Shown: positions 4,972-50,094 of the stretch, piece by piece | Layout: each line of letters begins with the position of its first letter | Numbering within the stretch: the first letter of the stretch is position 1 | DNA from: Clostridia bacterium | GTDB taxonomy: Bacteria; Bacillota; Clostridia; Lachnospirales; Lachnospiraceae | DNA: 58,039 nt | Reading direction: 5' to 3' | Assembly: GCA_910574835.1 (NCBI GenBank) | Contig: CAJTDE010000030.1 | Coordinates: forward strand, 1-58,039 | Notes under the pieces: model-generated | Told to the model about the DNA's origin: nothing | Database searches by the model: none | What the model saw: only the letters and a program-made list of their open reading frames with translations | Program-made: the position numbers and the translations under genes

Positions 4972-5472
4972 TTAGAATCCGCGAATCCCATCGGCATCAT
5001 CCCCTGACTTATCAATGGCCTTTATTACTACCTCATACCCGTACCCTTCATTTACCTGCACATGCACCCGGTCGCCCACTCTGTGTCCCTGAATAGCCTT
5101 ACCCAAGGGCGATTCAATGCTGATACGCCCATCCAGAGAATTACCGCGGATGGAGGTAACAAGCTTTACCTTCTCCGTCTCGTCATCCTCCTCAAAATAC
5201 AGCTCCACCAGATTGTTGAGTCCCACCTCATCGGCCCCGGATTCATCCGATACAATCTTAGCTGTCCGAAGCATCCGCTCCAGATAGCGGATGCGGCTCT
5301 CGTTACGGTTCTTATCACGCTTGGCCGCATAATACTCAAAATTTTCGCTTAAATCCCCATGCGCCCGCGCCTCCTTTACGGCCTCAATTGCCTCCTTGCG
5401 GACCACCAGCTTGCGGTGCTCAATCTCCGCCTCGATTTTTGCCACATCACTCTTTGTCAACTGCTCCTGCAT
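4972..5472 (-). CDS. greA: Transcription elongation factor GreA/GreB family
   Basis: A 166-residue Gre factor. It stimulates the intrinsic RNA cleavage of backtracked RNA polymerase. The N-terminal antiparallel coiled coil (about 1-75) carries the acidic tip in HGDLSENFEYYAAK. The C-terminal FKBP-like domain contains SPLGKAIQGHRVGD. The open frame extends far upstream, but that part is the intergenic hairpin element. The ATG at 5472 is preferred over the one at 5478 because AGGAAAGAGG then has a 6-nt spacing. Confidence 0.88.
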   Translation of the reverse strand: MQEQLTKSDVAKIEAEIEHRKLVVRKEAIEAVKEARAHGDLSENFEYYAAKRDKNRNESRIRYLERMLRTAKIVSDESGADEVGLNNLVELYFEEDDETEKVKLVTSIRGNSLDGRISIESPLGKAIQGHRVGDRVHVQVNEGYGYEVVIKAIDKSGDDADGIRGF

Positions 5473-5499
5473 ATCCATCCTCTTTCCTGTTACTGTTTT

Positions 5500-5674
5500 G
5501 TTACAATTCACACCCACGCCAGTTTTTGCAAAGCTTTTATTTGATAAGGGTGCAAATTGTAACAGGGACTGCCCATTTAAAGTCGCCTTCGGCGAGGGGC
5601 AGTCCCTTTGGCCCCATAACTGTACTGGCTCCACACCAATCAGCGGAGTGATTGGTGTGGGTGTGAAAAGTAAC
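5500..5674. repeat. Multi-hairpin element with inverted ends in greA leader
   Basis: About 175 bp bounded by 22-nt inverted repeats (5500-5521 and 5653-5674, 19 of 22 matching) that begin GTTAC. Inside are a hairpin with AGGGACTGCCC/GGGGCAGTCCCT arms and a perfect CCACACCAATCA/TGATTGGTGTGG stem. A further inverted copy of the end, AATTGTAAC, lies near 5554-5562. Only one copy is seen here. It could be a small non-autonomous element or a structured leader of greA. Confidence 0.65.
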
Positions 5675-5707
5675 ACTGTTTTTCCAAGTCTTTATTTCCG
5701 GTACGGA

Positions 5708-6850
5708 CTACCGGTTTGGGCCCTCCATAATCGTCTTTACCGAGATCCCATTTACCTCCACGCGATCATCCACCCCAATCACAAGGCACTGACGTCCGTC
5801 AATCATGCGGGTTTCCACCAGATCCGCCCGCTCCGGGTTCACCTGAATCACGATGTCCGGTGTCTTGATCTCAAATTTTCGGGCGTTCATCACATTGGAG
5901 GCCAGAAATTCCGCCTGCTCTCCGGCCGTCACCTCATAGCGCTCCTCCAACTCCTCCAGCTTTTCCGCCTCTACGCCGCTGGCTGCCAGAATCTGCTTCA
6001 CTTCCCTCTTGTCCAGAGTAACCGGATCCGGTTCGTCCTTACGCTCCTCTACCAGCTCATGGAGCTTTTCGTGAATATTCCGCACCACCTCGTAGGCGCA
6101 GTCCTCGCCTAAGGTTTCCTCTATAATGGCGTTAAATGTCTCCTTCTGTCCTCCGGCGGACATAGGCATGGGGCAGCCGAACATATTCTCCGCAAAGATT
6201 TCATTCAATTCTTCGGGATTCTTGGAGTAGTACAGCATACTGTGAAGATCCGTGCTTCGATCCTGGAAGGCGGGGAAGAGAAATCCGGCCATTGGAAGCT
6301 CTACCAGCCAATCCCTGGTCCGCGCCCCAAAGCGGTTACCATCCGCATCGTAGCTTAAGCCTGCCTTGGACAGCTTTACAGGGCAAATGGTACAGAGCAG
6401 GTATTCGTAAACCTCGTCGGAGGCGTCAAACATTTCCTCATTGTCCGAGGAGCGTCCCGGAATATCATAAGCTCCGTGTACCAGCAAAATCAGATAATTT
6501 TCCCCATAAGGAAAGGTTTCAATTATCCGGTCGTAGAATGCCTCTACAAGAGCTTCCTCCGTCAAACGGCTGTTTTTCAGCTTCATCAAAAATTCCTGCG
6601 TTCCTCCCGGCATCTCCGTATCCAGGGGAAAATCAAGATTCAGAAGGTTTTTTCCCACTGTTCCCGATAATGCCTTGCGGAAAATCTCAAAGTACTTAAA
6701 GGCTTCCTCCTCCGGCAGAGATAAAAAAGCCTCCTGCATTTCCGTTTTCTTATTCTTCTCTCCGTCCACATAGCAGCCGCACATCCGTGTAAGGGCACAG
6801 TGCTCCGGGGTAAACTGCTTTTTGATTTCTGATATTTCCTTCTTGTTCAT
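5708..6850 (-). CDS. DUF4317 domain-containing protein
   Basis: A 380-residue cytoplasmic protein of the DUF4317 family, common in Lachnospiraceae. The family start MNKKEISEIKKQFTPEHCAL and the RMCGCYVDGEK segment are present. No catalytic motif is recognised and the family has no established function. The ATG at 6850 follows AAGGAGAG at 11 nt; the open frame extends 11 codons further without a good site. It lies between the TetM-like GTPase (upstream in transcription) and greA. Confidence 0.88.
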   Translation of the reverse strand: MNKKEISEIKKQFTPEHCALTRMCGCYVDGEKNKKTEMQEAFLSLPEEEAFKYFEIFRKALSGTVGKNLLNLDFPLDTEMPGGTQEFLMKLKNSRLTEEALVEAFYDRIIETFPYGENYLILLVHGAYDIPGRSSDNEEMFDASDEVYEYLLCTICPVKLSKAGLSYDADGNRFGARTRDWLVELPMAGFLFPAFQDRSTDLHSMLYYSKNPEELNEIFAENMFGCPMPMSAGGQKETFNAIIEETLGEDCAYEVVRNIHEKLHELVEERKDEPDPVTLDKREVKQILAASGVEAEKLEELEERYEVTAGEQAEFLASNVMNARKFEIKTPDIVIQVNPERADLVETRMIDGRQCLVIGVDDRVEVNGISVKTIMEGPNR

Positions 6851-6989: not shown

Positions 6990-9893
6990 CTAATCCTCTC
7001 CAAAGCTTTTTCTCCCAAGCCGCACTTCTTCCATGAACTTCGCCAGCTCTTCCGGAAGATTTTCCAATAAATACTGCTTGCTTCCGGTATATTGGGAAAG
7101 AAAGCTGTCCCGAATCTCGGCACTTACATTCCGCACTTCTTCCAAAAGGCCCTGTGCTGACATCCGCTTTGCTCCCTGACCCAGAATAATCACCTGCTCC
7201 AGAGCGTCCGAGGTAGCCACTGTCACCTCATACTGCCGTCCAAGCTCGTGAGCCGTTTTCTCTATATACTGATCCGCTGTCTCCGCCTCCTTGGTATAGA
7301 CTACATGGATATTGTGATATCGGGAAACAGATCCCTTGCTCCCCTCCACCCGGTAAGCGTCAAAGACCAGAATCACCGTGTTTTTCCGGTAGCCCTGGAG
7401 GTTACAGAGAATGTCCGCCAGCTTCCCTCTGGCCGCCTCCAGATTTACCTCCGCAAGCTCTTTTAAATCCTCCCAGGAAAATATGATATTGTATCCGTCC
7501 ACCAGAAGATATTCCTTCTGCGGCTTCTTAGGCGCGGATTTTCGTACCGGCTGATAGTCCTCTTCCCTGTGAAAGCTCCGCTCCACTCGGCCCACGCCCT
7601 GGCGGTCTCTGCGGATAGGTCCATAGGTACGTACAAAAATCTCTTCCAATTCTTTTGGGTCCGCAAAATCCCGGGAGGCCGCACTCTGTCTGGCAAATGC
7701 CTGTCCGACTGCGGAACGGTTCGCCGTCTTTCGCACACTTTCCATATGCATATAGTCCGGCACCTGATTCCAGGGAACGTAGAAGCCGGCTCCATGAGCG
7801 CAGAAAATCGATCCTGTGGGATTTTCCGCATCTTGTTCCGGATCATAGCCTGAGGCTGCAATCACTTCCGAAGCATTGTGACAGGGTCCATAGCCTCCCG
7901 GCGCACAGAACAGGCGGCCTGTCCCTTTGGTGTAGGCGTAGACCTGTTTTTGGTAGTCCCCCATAGCCGATACTGGAGCCTTACCCGTGAGAATGACCAT
8001 TTCCTCTATTCGCCTGTTTTTTTCGGGCATATAGGTATACCCGGAGGGTGTTTCCTCTATTCGCCCATCTTTTCCGGGCATATAGGTATACCCGGAGGGT
8101 GTTTCCTCTATTCGCCCATCTTTTCCGGGCATATAGGTATACCCGGAGGGTGTTTCCTCTATTTGCTCTCTTTTTGTTTCCGCTTTCTGCACTGATTCCG
8201 AGAAAGTTCCCGACATTTTCTGAATGTCTGCCATAGCCCTTCCCACCTTATCCCGGGGAAGCTCCAGGCGAAATTCATAAAACGGCTCCAGAAGCACACA
8301 CTTTGCCTGGCAAAGCCCCTGGCGGACCGCCCGGTAGGTGGCCTGGCGGAAATCTCCGCCCTCCGTATGCTTCAGATGGGCCTTTCCTGCTGCCAGTGTG
8401 ATTTTCACATCCGTAAGCTCCGCTCCCACCAGCACCCCCGGATGCTTCCGCTCTGCCAGATGGGTAAGGATAAGACGCTGCCAGTTCCGATCCAATACAT
8501 CCTCACTGCAACTGGTGTCAAGAACTACGCCGCTCCCCGGCTCTCCGGGTTCCATAAGAAGATGCACCTCCGCATAGTGGCGTAAAGGTTCAAAATGGCC
8601 CACTCCCTCCACAGCAGAAGCAATTGTTTCTTTATATATGATACTGCCGGGTCCAAATTCCACATTCTCCCCAAAGCGTTCCAAAATCAGGCTCTTTAAA
8701 ATCTCAAGCTGAACCGCTCCCATAACCTGCACATGAATCTCTCCAAGCGTATCCTTCCACACCACATGCAGCTCCGGAAGCTCCTCCTCCAGTCTGCGAA
8801 GCTTTGCAAGCATCCCATGAACATCGCAGCCGGAAGGCAGAAGAAGCTGATAGGTCAAGACCGGCTCCAGAAAAGGATCGGCCGCCCGTTTCTCAAAGCC
8901 CAGACCGTCGCCGACCCTTGTCTGTGTAAGACCTGTCAGCGCACAGATCATTCCGGCCGGAGCTTCCGGGATTGTCCGAAAACCCTCACCGGAATAAAGG
9001 CGGATCTGATCCACCTTTTCCTCCCATGCCTCTTCTTCCCGGCTTCCCGCAAGAAGCGCTTTGACCTTCAGGCTTCCTCCGGTGATCTTAAGATGGGTCA
9101 GCCGGTTTCCCTGTGCATCCCGGCTGATCTTATATACCCTGGCTCCAAATTCCGCAGGATATTTTTGATTTGAGCCAAAGCGCTCCAGTCCCCCAAGCAG
9201 TTCCTCCACACCCTCCGCGCGGAGAGCCGAACCAAAATAGCAGGGAAATACGGCCCTTTCCCCAATCTCCTTCCTGATCTGTCCGTCCTCAAGGCATCCC
9301 TGCTCCAGATATGCGTCCAGAAGGCTCTCCTTGCACACGGCCAAATCCTCCCAAAGAGCATCCGCCCCTCTGTCCGGGGAAAAATCCACGCACCGATCAT
9401 CCAGCTTTTCCTTTAATTCCTGTAAAAGCCTCTCCCGGTCTGTCCCCGGCTGATCCATTTTGTTGGCAAAAAGAAATACCGGCACCCGGTAACGCGCAAG
9501 GAGCTGCCATAAGGTCCGTACATGTCCCTGCACCCCGTCGGCTCCGCTGATAATCAGCACCGCGCAGTCAAGAACCTGCAAGGTCCGCTCCATCTCTGCG
9601 GAAAAATCCACGTGTCCCGGCGTGTCAAGAAGGGTGACCTCCCGATCACCGAGCGTCAGCCTGGCCTGCTTGGAAAAGATGGTAATGCCTCTCTGCCGCT
9701 CCAGCTCATAGGTGTCGAGGCAGGCGGTTCCGTGATCTACTCTCCCCATGCTTCGGATGCTGCCGCATTGGTAGAGCATGGCCTCCGCAAGCGTTGTCTT
9801 GCCGGCGTCAACATGGGCTAGGAGACCTACGGTCATATATTTTGGATGCTTTCCAATCAAGCTGTTCTCTCTGTTTTTAGATATATCTTCCAT
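6990..9893 (-). CDS. TetM/EF-G-like ribosomal GTPase fused to Rae1/YacP NYN domain
   Basis: A 967-residue fusion. Residues 20-575 resemble TetM-type ribosome-protection factors: G1 AHVDAGKT (26-33), RGIT (68-71), DTPGH (90-94), NKMD (144-147), then EF-G-like domains II-IV. Residues about 576-632 are a 17-residue tandem repeat (ETPSGYTYMPGK unit) inserted within the domain V region, since GKAPVSAMGDYQKQ after it fits the next domain V strand. Residues 793-935 match the NYN nuclease Rae1/YacP: LLVDGYN, VFDA (843-846), ETAD (871-874), ATSD and GQGAKRMSA. Rae1 is a ribosome A-site endoribonuclease in Bacillus. The protein may act on ribosomes in two ways; tetracycline resistance should not be assumed. 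AAAGGG precedes the ATG. Confidence 0.9.
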   Translation of the reverse strand: MEDISKNRENSLIGKHPKYMTVGLLAHVDAGKTTLAEAMLYQCGSIRSMGRVDHGTACLDTYELERQRGITIFSKQARLTLGDREVTLLDTPGHVDFSAEMERTLQVLDCAVLIISGADGVQGHVRTLWQLLARYRVPVFLFANKMDQPGTDRERLLQELKEKLDDRCVDFSPDRGADALWEDLAVCKESLLDAYLEQGCLEDGQIRKEIGERAVFPCYFGSALRAEGVEELLGGLERFGSNQKYPAEFGARVYKISRDAQGNRLTHLKITGGSLKVKALLAGSREEEAWEEKVDQIRLYSGEGFRTIPEAPAGMICALTGLTQTRVGDGLGFEKRAADPFLEPVLTYQLLLPSGCDVHGMLAKLRRLEEELPELHVVWKDTLGEIHVQVMGAVQLEILKSLILERFGENVEFGPGSIIYKETIASAVEGVGHFEPLRHYAEVHLLMEPGEPGSGVVLDTSCSEDVLDRNWQRLILTHLAERKHPGVLVGAELTDVKITLAAGKAHLKHTEGGDFRQATYRAVRQGLCQAKCVLLEPFYEFRLELPRDKVGRAMADIQKMSGTFSESVQKAETKREQIEETPSGYTYMPGKDGRIEETPSGYTYMPGKDGRIEETPSGYTYMPEKNRRIEEMVILTGKAPVSAMGDYQKQVYAYTKGTGRLFCAPGGYGPCHNASEVIAASGYDPEQDAENPTGSIFCAHGAGFYVPWNQVPDYMHMESVRKTANRSAVGQAFARQSAASRDFADPKELEEIFVRTYGPIRRDRQGVGRVERSFHREEDYQPVRKSAPKKPQKEYLLVDGYNIIFSWEDLKELAEVNLEAARGKLADILCNLQGYRKNTVILVFDAYRVEGSKGSVSRYHNIHVVYTKEAETADQYIEKTAHELGRQYEVTVATSDALEQVIILGQGAKRMSAQGLLEEVRNVSAEIRDSFLSQYTGSKQYLLENLPEELAKFMEEVRLGRKSFGED
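8001..8160 (-). repeat. In-frame 51-bp tandem repeat inside the GTPase-NYN gene
   Basis: Three full 51-bp units start at 8001, 8052 and 8103, with a fourth partial copy from 8154. Each encodes 17 residues around ETPSGYTYMP. The last two full units are nearly identical; the first differs in its spacer. The unit is related to the intergenic array at 35041-35212: both contain GGGTATACC, an ATGCCC..ATGGGC dyad and GGAAACACCCT. Confidence 0.9.
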
Positions 9894-17677: not shown

Positions 17678-17699
17678 CAAAGTAATCACATAGCAAATA

Positions 17700-17802
17700 T
17701 TATGCTAGGGGAGCCTAAGGCTGAGAAAGCGTACACACGCTGACCCTCATTACTTGAACCGGTTAATACCGGCGTAAGGAAGCTGCTTTTCGTATCCCCT
17801 CC
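17700..17802 (+). ncRNA. TPP riboswitch (THI element)
   Basis: The conserved core AGGGGAGCCTAAGGCTGAGA begins near 17707, with a GCGTACACACGC hairpin, ACCCTCATTACTTGAACC and GGTTAATACCGGCGTAAGGA in the family order. P1 is closed by AGGGG and CCCCT near 17795-17799. It senses thiamine pyrophosphate and normally lowers expression of the downstream gene, here thiT. Confidence 0.96.
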
Positions 17803-34919: not shown

Positions 34920-35040
34920 GTGATACAAATGATGCATCCGTATTATATACTGCGCCCTCCTGACCGGAGGGGGCCGGGGAGCGGTAAAACCAAAAACCCT
35001 TTTTACCCCCCCCCTAGAAAAAAATGGAAATTTCCCAAAA

Positions 35041-35212
35041 ACATGGGCAGATCAAGGAAGCACCCTATGGGTATACCATTATGCCCAAAAACATGGGCAG
35101 ATCAAGGAAACACCCTACGGGTATACCATTATGCCCAAAAAACATGGGCAGATCAAGGAAACACCCTACGGGTATACCATTATGCCCAAAAAACATGGGC
35201 AGATCAAGGAAA
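35041..35212 (+). repeat. 50/51-bp tandem repeat in the gntR leader
   Basis: ACATGGGCAGATCAAGGAA starts at 35041, 35091, 35142 and 35193, giving periods 50, 51 and 51. Between copies lie CACCCTACGGGTATACC and ATTATGCCC, with dyads GGTATACC and GCCC..GGGC. The final copy runs into AAGGAAAGGAG, which serves as the gntR ribosome binding site. Frame-wise, the last two units read ETPYGYTIMPKK, the same phrase as in the GTPase gene at 8001-8160. Confidence 0.92.
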
Positions 35213-35223
35213 GGAGTGACTAT

Positions 35224-35592
35224 ATGGCCTGGATTCTTGATGATTCCCGTCCCATCTACCTGCAGATCGTGGACGTCATCAAAACCAACATTATCGCCGG
35301 CGCATACCAGCCAGGCGACAAGCTTCCTTCTGTACGGGACCTGGCGATGGAGGCATCCGTCAATCCCAATACCATGCAGAAGGCACTGACAGAACTGGAG
35401 CGCAGCGGTCTTGTCTACACACAACGAACCAGCGGCAGATTTATCACGGAGGATACGGCAAAAATGACAGAGATTAAAGAACAGCTTGCACGGGAACAGA
35501 TTCAGCTTTTCCTCAAAAACATGGAACAATTGGGATTTAAAAAAGAAGATATCAAACGGCTTCTGGATCAGGAGTTAAAGGGGGGACAGTAA
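35224..35592 (+). CDS. GntR family regulator, YtrA type
   Basis: A 122-residue repressor of the short YtrA branch. The winged helix includes LPSVRDLAMEASVNPNTMQK (about 39-58); the C-terminal tail of about 45 residues is a dimerising helix rather than a ligand domain. The ATG at 35224 has AAAGGAG in front. The open frame extends upstream through the tandem repeat, which is not protein sequence of this family. It overlaps the start of the ABC ATPase gene by one base and probably represses the three-gene operon. Confidence 0.9.
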   Translation: MAWILDDSRPIYLQIVDVIKTNIIAGAYQPGDKLPSVRDLAMEASVNPNTMQKALTELERSGLVYTQRTSGRFITEDTAKMTEIKEQLAREQIQLFLKNMEQLGFKKEDIKRLLDQELKGGQ

Positions 35593-49585: not shown

Positions 49586-50094
49586 AAGTCGCTGCGCGAC
49601 AGCACTAAAGAGTAAAGTCGCTTCGGCACACCTGTGTTGAGAGGAACTTTTATTCGAAAGGGCCTCATAAAAGTTCCTCTCGTGCGCCTTTGCGACTTTA
49701 CTGTTTAAGTCGCTGCGCGACAGCACTAAAGAGTAAAGTCGCTTCGACGCACCTGTAGTGAGAGAAACTTTTATTCGAAAGGGCCTCATAAAAGTTCCTC
49801 TCGTGCGTCTTTGCGACTTTACTGTTTAAGTCGCTGCGCGACGGCACTAAAGAGTAAAGTCGCTTCGGCACACCTGTGTTGAGAGGAACTTTTATTCGAA
49901 AGGGCCTCATAAAAGTTCCTCTCGTGCGCCTTTGCGACTTTACTGTTTAAGTCGCTGCGCGACGGCACTAAAGAGTAAAGTCGCTTCGGCACACCTGTAT
50001 TGAGAGAAACTTTTATTCGAAAGGGCCTCATAAAAGTTCCTCTCGTGCGCCTTTGCGACTTTACTGTTTAAGTCGCTTGACATTTCTCAGCCGG
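49586..50094 (-). repeat. Four tandem copies of the 121-bp hairpin repeat
   Basis: Full units start at 49586, 49707, 49828 and 49949 with an exact 121-bp period and about 95% identity; a stub starts at 50070 and runs into the conserved flank CTTGACATTTCTCAGCCGG (50076-50094). Each unit folds into a long hairpin. The array separates the kinase gene from the sensor gene, and its end is 6 nt from the TAGGAGAAAG site of the latter. Confidence 0.95.

Follow-up and report, generated by a model that had tools for sequence, protein, structure and literature searches.

A two-hairpin repeat dispersed at Shine-Dalgarno sites and inside protein genes of Lachnospiraceae

The DNA analysed here (58,039 nucleotides, positions 1 to 58,039 of contig CAJTDE010000030.1, assembly GCA_910574835.1, from a Clostridia bacterium of the Lachnospiraceae; hereafter the window) raises the question why a minisatellite with a 51-bp unit occurs both inside the gene of a translational GTPase and in the leader of a gntR gene. 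A previous reading of the sequence alone had suggested that a dispersed, dyad-rich repeat had invaded the GTPase gene and expanded there by whole codons, with its frame kept open. We found that both arrays belong to one repeat family, most copies of which are situated directly in front of a Shine-Dalgarno (SD) sequence. The family is probably a non-autonomous miniature element which integrates at SD-like sites, at least sometimes duplicates its target and then expands locally.

One repeat family in a gene and in a leader

One unit from each array could be aligned at the DNA level, in the same sense, with 41 of 51 bases matching. The score of 31 is far above that of 2000 mononucleotide shuffles (mean -8.9, standard deviation 4.1, maximum 6), and both arrays contain the words GGGTATACC, ATGCCC, ATGGGC and GGAAACACCCT. 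Two independent low-complexity minisatellites that had converged might likewise have periods near 51 bp and be found on the same contig, but the identity of 80% across 51 bp exceeds the shuffles by far, and dozens of related copies are present in the window's genome, where a strict pattern of the unit gave 20 sites and the reversed control pattern none. Because the genome search found these copies, convergence is refuted, and we give it practically no weight. The gntR array gave 14 BLAST matches in this genome, and a covariance model built from 20 units gave 51 unit matches at E<=0.01, distributed over 33 places by hand count, and 56 at E<=1. Scoring was confined to 150 of the 2584 candidates from the first look, and 51 is accordingly a lower bound. 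Thus neither of the outcomes that the sequence-only reading had named as fatal, namely the absence of further copies and an alignment of the two loci no better than shuffled controls, was observed.

The coding array is located on the minus strand at 8000-8174 (period 51, 3.5 copies, 94% matches in Tandem Repeats Finder) within an open reading frame (ORF) of 967 amino acids (6990-9893, minus strand), encoding an EF-G/TetM-like translational GTPase with a C-terminal YacP-like NYN domain. According to Tandem Repeats Finder, the unit matches and the split Pfam EFG_C match described below, it comprises three 51-bp units in frame in domain V (8102-8152, 8051-8101 and 8000-8050). The array is translated as ETPSGYTYMPGKDGRIE; on its 5' side the array limits and the sequence indicate a partial unit or spacer ending GCAAATAGAGGAAA (8153-8174). 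The leader array on the plus strand (35037-35212; period 51, 3.5 copies, 97% matches) begins with a 5' half unit consisting of the second hairpin and the spacer (35034-35060). It is followed by the units 35061-35110 (50 bp), 35111-35161 and 35162-35212, assigned by covariance-model matches and sequence, and one of its frames translates as ETPYGYTIMPKKHGQIK. In the last unit, hairpin 1 (ACCC-TAC-GGGT) occupies 35163-35173 and hairpin 2 (TGCCC...GGGCA), the arms of which covary across the family, 35183-35201; the purine spacer GATCAAGGAAA (35202-35216) leads into the SD GGAG. The 3' end of the array, GGAAA-GGAG, lies 7 nt upstream of the ATG of a gntR-family regulator of 122 amino acids (35224-35592, plus strand; Pfam GntR 3e-16). 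Orthologues of gntR without an array keep the same start codon and SD.

A unit consists of a core of about 39 nt with two hairpins and a purine spacer of about 12 nt. The order is hairpin 1 (ACCC-TNC-GGGT), the linker ATACCTNT, hairpin 2 in the variants TGCCC..GGGCA, TGCAC..GTGCA or TGTCC..GGACA, and the spacer ending in GGAAA. The dyads anticipated from the sequence are confirmed by covariation: among 217 distinct cores in which the needed columns were kept, aligned by a sequence-only profile, 134 cells showed changes in both partners of a pair, compared with 31 on average and at most 41 in shuffles, and 91.8% of the cells were paired versus 41-46% with the partners slid by one or two columns. 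The latter control carries more weight, as the shuffles leave relatedness in place. In 120 arrays left after deduplication, the 5' junction mostly reads GGAAA from position -5 to position -1, with frequencies of 63, 86, 90, 95 and 86% for the five bases, respectively. A long variant of about 100 nt possesses an additional conserved stretch (CAAGGTGAATT...CCTGGGG) 3' of hairpin 1, and the short units look as if they were internal-deletion derivatives of it. At the loci L446, L447, L449, L455, L456 and L461 a long unit is found at the 5' side, with short 51-bp units after it towards the SD.

The search of the window against Rfam 15 at gathering score revealed no family on the repeat, its sole match being a thiamine pyrophosphate (TPP) riboswitch at 17697-17797 (plus strand), and none of the matches of 18 further loci at E<=1 overlapped the repeat. 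A known RNA family was therefore rejected.

All 16 genomes of the genus contained unit matches (1-132 each), whereas the 25 other genomes in that sample had none; within the taxonomic family Lachnospiraceae, matches occurred in 27 of 200 sampled genomes. In a species-genome collection the exact pattern was present in at least 112 stretches, and the 80 matches listed carry names of Lachnospiraceae genera, uncultured Clostridia and a few of Clostridium, Eubacterium and Roseburia. One metagenome-assembled genome with the repeat is labelled Paenibacillaceae, which we take to be a mislabelling, because the protein downstream begins like that of a Lacrimispora copy. The exact pattern was found in no stretch of the viral_contigs collection, and a 161-base long-variant query had no match among plasmids and phages; carriage by viruses or plasmids was rejected on these grounds.

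Placement before start codons and within proteins

By hand count, the 33 places in the window's genome comprise 26 in front of a start codon, two in coding sequence (the GTPase and a serine recombinase) and five of neither kind. The same preference was observed in the loci fetched, where an SD-like sequence followed by a start codon and an ORF (at least 50 amino acids, or at least 20 if running off the locus) comes directly 3' of 128 out of 160 arrays. For 3200 positions drawn at random from these loci the proportion was 4.0%, and for the opposite strand of the arrays it was 2 of 160. These 160 were retained from 186 arrays, those with less than 200 nt of downstream DNA being left out, and orthologues were counted separately. 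For the loci fetched by the repeat alone the values are 126 of 156 arrays, and 88 of 113 (opposite strand 2) after removal of look-alike downstream sequences. The core is separated from the start codon by a median of 24 nt. The 32 remaining arrays include several that are coding, several with an SD whose ORF is short or cut off, and a few located at purine-rich sites of other kinds. The leader copy in the window is thus intergenic, as had been stated, but not merely so, since its family is tied to SD sites.

The genes behind the copies named by a profile match include PstA, PstB, apt, formate-tetrahydrofolate ligase, GntR, MatE, ECF sigma, FGGY kinase, LigA and pseudouridine synthase; the remaining gene labels are presumed from the N-terminal sequence. 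Relative to the ATG of the repeat, the gene starts fall into the three frames 46, 41 and 34 times (121 cases), i.e. there is no fixed frame, and 20 of the 121 ORFs from this ATG end within -10 to +15 of the gene start. Translational coupling or a leader peptide was rejected for lack of a frame bias. In one leader (L184) a TPP riboswitch (5417-5525) lies shortly 5' of a 51-bp array (5666-5959), an example of the element being placed between a riboswitch and an SD.

The GTPase gene is present in all 16 genomes of the genus, and nine of them could be compared at the site of the insert with the motif used; the alignments of the other seven also break near residues 570-632. Four genomes (G012, G006, G004 and G001) have no insert, while G013 has 17 additional amino acids (one unit), G007 51 (three units) and G000 59 (three units and 8 codons). 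The additional 8 amino acids in G002 and 32 in G005 look either like the long variant or like partial or diverged remnants. Where the insert is absent, the site is rich in purines, as exemplified by CAGGAGGGAGAGATG in G006. The orthologue of G012 exhibits one continuous EFG_C match (profile positions 1-85 of 89); in the window's GTPase this match is split into two stretches, the best of which begins at profile position 40. Invasion of the gene, growth by whole codons and a location inside domain V, all claimed before, are borne out by this comparison. With 385.8 bits the GTPase remains far below the cut-off of 775 for the best tetracycline-resistance family among the 25 NCBIfam rows shown, and below every such cut-off among them. 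It is for this reason called EF-G/TetM-like with an NYN domain, and a tetracycline resistance ribosomal protection protein was rejected.

The repeat is translated in other proteins, too. The frame giving ETPxGYT is used in the GTPase, the serine recombinase of the window's genome, a probable second recombinase (a fragment of 115 amino acids) and a Trep_Strep membrane protein; the frame giving HPxGIP in two homologous ABC exporters, at the same place, and in an AAA-ATPase-like ORF; and the TLRV frame in PstA. Two further ORFs possibly have in-frame copies. An ABC exporter at L260 (G011, minus strand) apparently contains two in-frame insertions, the short unit GKHPPGIPGCHSAEQRK and the long-variant piece KVNSGKAGREGGLGRDG; we take the former to lie before the H-loop strand and the latter at the start of the nucleotide-binding domain.

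Coding copies consequently occupy all three sense frames, and the idea of one frame kept open had to be given up. Among 89 distinct non-coding 51-mers, 82% are free of stops in the ETPxGYT frame and 88% and 98% in two others. Since non-coding units are open to a similar extent in several frames, the frame shared by the two window arrays is no evidence of a coding origin, and a conserved reading frame as a selected feature was rejected.

An exact insertion and the turnover of arrays

At the junction of pstA and pstB (named by NCBIfam equivalog models) the filled allele of G000 differs from the empty allele of G004 by exactly 51 bp, with 276 of the 285 bases of the empty allele being identical (97%). 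G004 has a single copy of the 12-bp sequence GATAGGAGGTAA, which holds the SD of pstB, whereas in G000 a copy flanks the core on each side. Of two further genomes, G005 has the repeat as in G000, and G012, which is more diverged, does not. The same 51 bp also add 17 codons in frame to the C-terminal tail of PstA, past its conserved part, without disturbing the overlap of pstA and pstB. In the RNA of the pstB copy folded in silico (L320, about 1030-1105), the SD GGAGG pairs with CCUCC, the first hairpin arm; the ribosome-binding site might be masked in this way. The ligA locus was not used as a second empty site; its relatives carry larger arrays and its spacer is family-like.

Repeats flanking the core are also specific to the locus at other single-unit arrays. 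For 119 of these the flanking-repeat score within a locus was 8.05, as opposed to 5.98 for pairs from different loci (0 of 5000 permutations). When the singles were filtered against upstream half units, 57 were kept, or 54 once look-alikes were removed, and for these 54 the scores were 6.65 and 5.57, or 4.02 and 3.53 when the last 5 nt were omitted (0 of 20000 permutations each). A score of 9 or more was reached by 14 of the 54 with 2.9 expected. An exact duplication of 12 bp is seen in one case (pstB) and a strong flanking match in these 14 filtered singles; we regard the filtered singles without a strong flanking match as decayed or of different origin.

Within arrays the units are homogeneous. 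Adjacent units have the same hairpin-2 arms in a fraction of 0.86 (49 distinct pairs) versus 0.23 for random pairs, and their identity is 95.9% (38 equal-length pairs) versus 78.1% between arrays. The gntR leaders contain none, half, 1, 2 or 3 units depending on the species (12 of 15 loci shown), and 17 other leaders vary likewise, with 0 to 3 units in orthologues. For this comparison 19 of the 33 places in the window's genome and one weaker match were probed and 92 of 108 matches fetched; the 17 leaders belong to these 20 probed genes. The pattern fits repeated local expansion and loss, for which the direct repeats of about 12 bp around the hairpin core would be a plausible substrate.

The window contains a second, unrelated tandem array at 49586-50077 with a unit of 121 bp rich in inverted repeats (4.1 copies, 95% matches). 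Near-full-length BLAST copies of this unit with 84-92% identity occur in six fetched loci (L105, L147, L148, L172, L408 and L423). One copy lies 5' of an orthologue of the FGGY kinase gene, which bears the 51-bp element in the window's genome.

How the copies may have spread

In the reading that we favour, the mobile part would be the core of about 39 nt with its two hairpins. It would integrate in fixed orientation at sites rich in purines; these would usually end in GGAAA, and most of them would in practice be SD sequences. At least sometimes about 12 bp of the target are duplicated, as shown by the one empty site and supported by the statistics for other loci. Owing to such a duplication the gene would keep an SD at the normal distance from its start codon, and core and duplicated target together would form one 51-bp unit. 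The direct repeats of about 12 bp might then promote slippage or unequal recombination, giving rise to the homogeneous arrays of varying copy number described above. Since 51 bp correspond to 17 codons, a copy in coding DNA survives if the frame is open and the place tolerant, as in domain V of the GTPase. The moving activity would presumably act in trans. A more specific version, which we put forward only tentatively, is that the SD itself is the integration target: an activity recognising SD-like DNA, or the SD of an mRNA, would insert the double hairpin of about 39 nt and duplicate about 12 bp over the ribosome-binding site. Insertions would then be self-silencing in leaders and add exactly 17 codons in genes.

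Several results weigh against a mobile element. No transposase tied to the repeat was found, and no gene lay between the ends in a search for an autonomous copy at 22 matches to the left end of the long variant in 8 of the 16 genus genomes, a limited look with one pattern, up to 3 mismatches and about 260 bases per match. The Y1 transposase domain PF01797, present in 8 of the 16 genomes, had no match in G007, G006 and G004 (97, 83 and 94% complete), which bear 50, 21 and 13 unit matches, respectively, and a Y1/RAYT transposase as the mover was rejected on this basis. The core has no terminal inverted repeats, as its ends read CACCC and GNGC. An exact empty site is available for one insertion only, and 40 of the 54 filtered singles have a flanking repeat below a score of 9. 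The copies in the ABC exporters, the AAA-ATPase-like ORF and ligA share little beyond GAAA or GGAAA with their target, so that the spacer may sometimes travel with the element. Furthermore, 62 of the 119 singles failed the half-unit filter, many of them carrying an upstream half unit; for 30 of the 52 singles with high scores, for instance, the sequence runs on into the hairpin. Such half units could have resulted from losses in a tandem array. The filter itself is crude, as 42% of unrelated pairs fail it and the pstB copy is excluded by it.

Some of these points would also suit a spread without dedicated transposition, by template switching or ectopic gene conversion via AAGGAAAGGAG-like microhomology of SD regions. 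The missing transposase, the predominance of GGAAA at the 5' junction of the 120 deduplicated arrays and the several copies sharing just GAAA or GGAAA with the target agree with this explanation. The pstB copy, however, has duplicated the target's own 12 bp, which lack GGAAA and are unlike the family spacer, and the locus specificity of the flanking repeats is not confined to the last 5 nt; we therefore consider template switching possible but rather doubtful. It might also be that the repeat is a cis-regulatory RNA leader, its two hairpins 5' of the SD tuning translation or mRNA stability, which has spread by copying and been kept by selection. The position of 128 of the 160 arrays directly before SD and start, the covarying hairpins, the SD pairing in the folded pstB-copy RNA and the presence of units in several species in the leaders of gntR and of the pseudouridine synthase and formate-tetrahydrofolate ligase genes point in this direction. 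But copies inside proteins in all three sense frames, the unrelated functions of the downstream genes examined, the turnover of presence and copy number between relatives and the lack of an overlapping Rfam match speak against it, and we hold a regulatory origin to be unlikely.

Comparisons of the element with known repeats go by the excerpted descriptions in the papers cited. On our best reading, its closest known kinds are MIRU and the Rickettsia palindromic elements. MIRU are described as short, apparently mobile repeats inserting at start codons with a likely minimal impact on expression, and as carrying an ORF coupled to the gene at -4 nt (PMC12548453). The family reported here also lies at gene starts and, judging from the empty site, is apparently mobile; it differs in occupying the SD, in leaving the start codon intact and in showing neither a coupled ORF nor a fixed frame. 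As far as that description goes, it shares with MIRU the logic of tolerance and not the coupled ORF. Rickettsia palindromic elements are palindromic repeats in frame inside protein genes (PMC3733652, PMC5656822), as is our repeat in the GTPase, the serine recombinase, the ABC exporters, the AAA-ATPase-like ORF, the Trep_Strep protein and PstA. By description they differ from it in that here SD sites prevail over a minority of coding copies, the core of about 39 nt is joined to a possibly target-derived spacer and the host is another bacterial group.

REP and BIME are likewise small (20-40 bp) dispersed hairpins, some of them within ORFs, and two REP super-families are named for the tags GTAG and CGTC at one end (PMC3733652). 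The consensus of 20 units has neither tag at its ends, and the element-rich G007 is without a Y1_Tnp match. BrickBuilt, a miniature inverted-repeat transposable element (MITE) of Porphyromonas gingivalis, also combines a minisatellite with a dispersed miniature element; by description, its units measure 23 nt, its ends are inverted repeats and it is found exclusively between genes, at distances of 49-591 nt from them (PMC4596501), whereas our units abut the SD and some are coding. From DDE-derived MITEs the repeat differs by its lack of terminal inverted repeats. A literature search including GGGTATACC, AAGGTGAATTTGCC and target-site duplication yielded no report of the repeat, bacterial repeats for GGGTATACC being judged by title among the matches listed.

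Small repeats tend to be regarded as mere clutter between genes. If the element targets and copies the ribosome-binding site, this would explain how dozens of insertions before start codons are tolerated in one genome, and the same element could also lengthen proteins by whole codons. The 0 to 3 units before orthologous genes represent a natural series for the effects of SD-adjacent hairpins on translation, and in gut Lachnospiraceae the in-frame inserts can mislead annotation.

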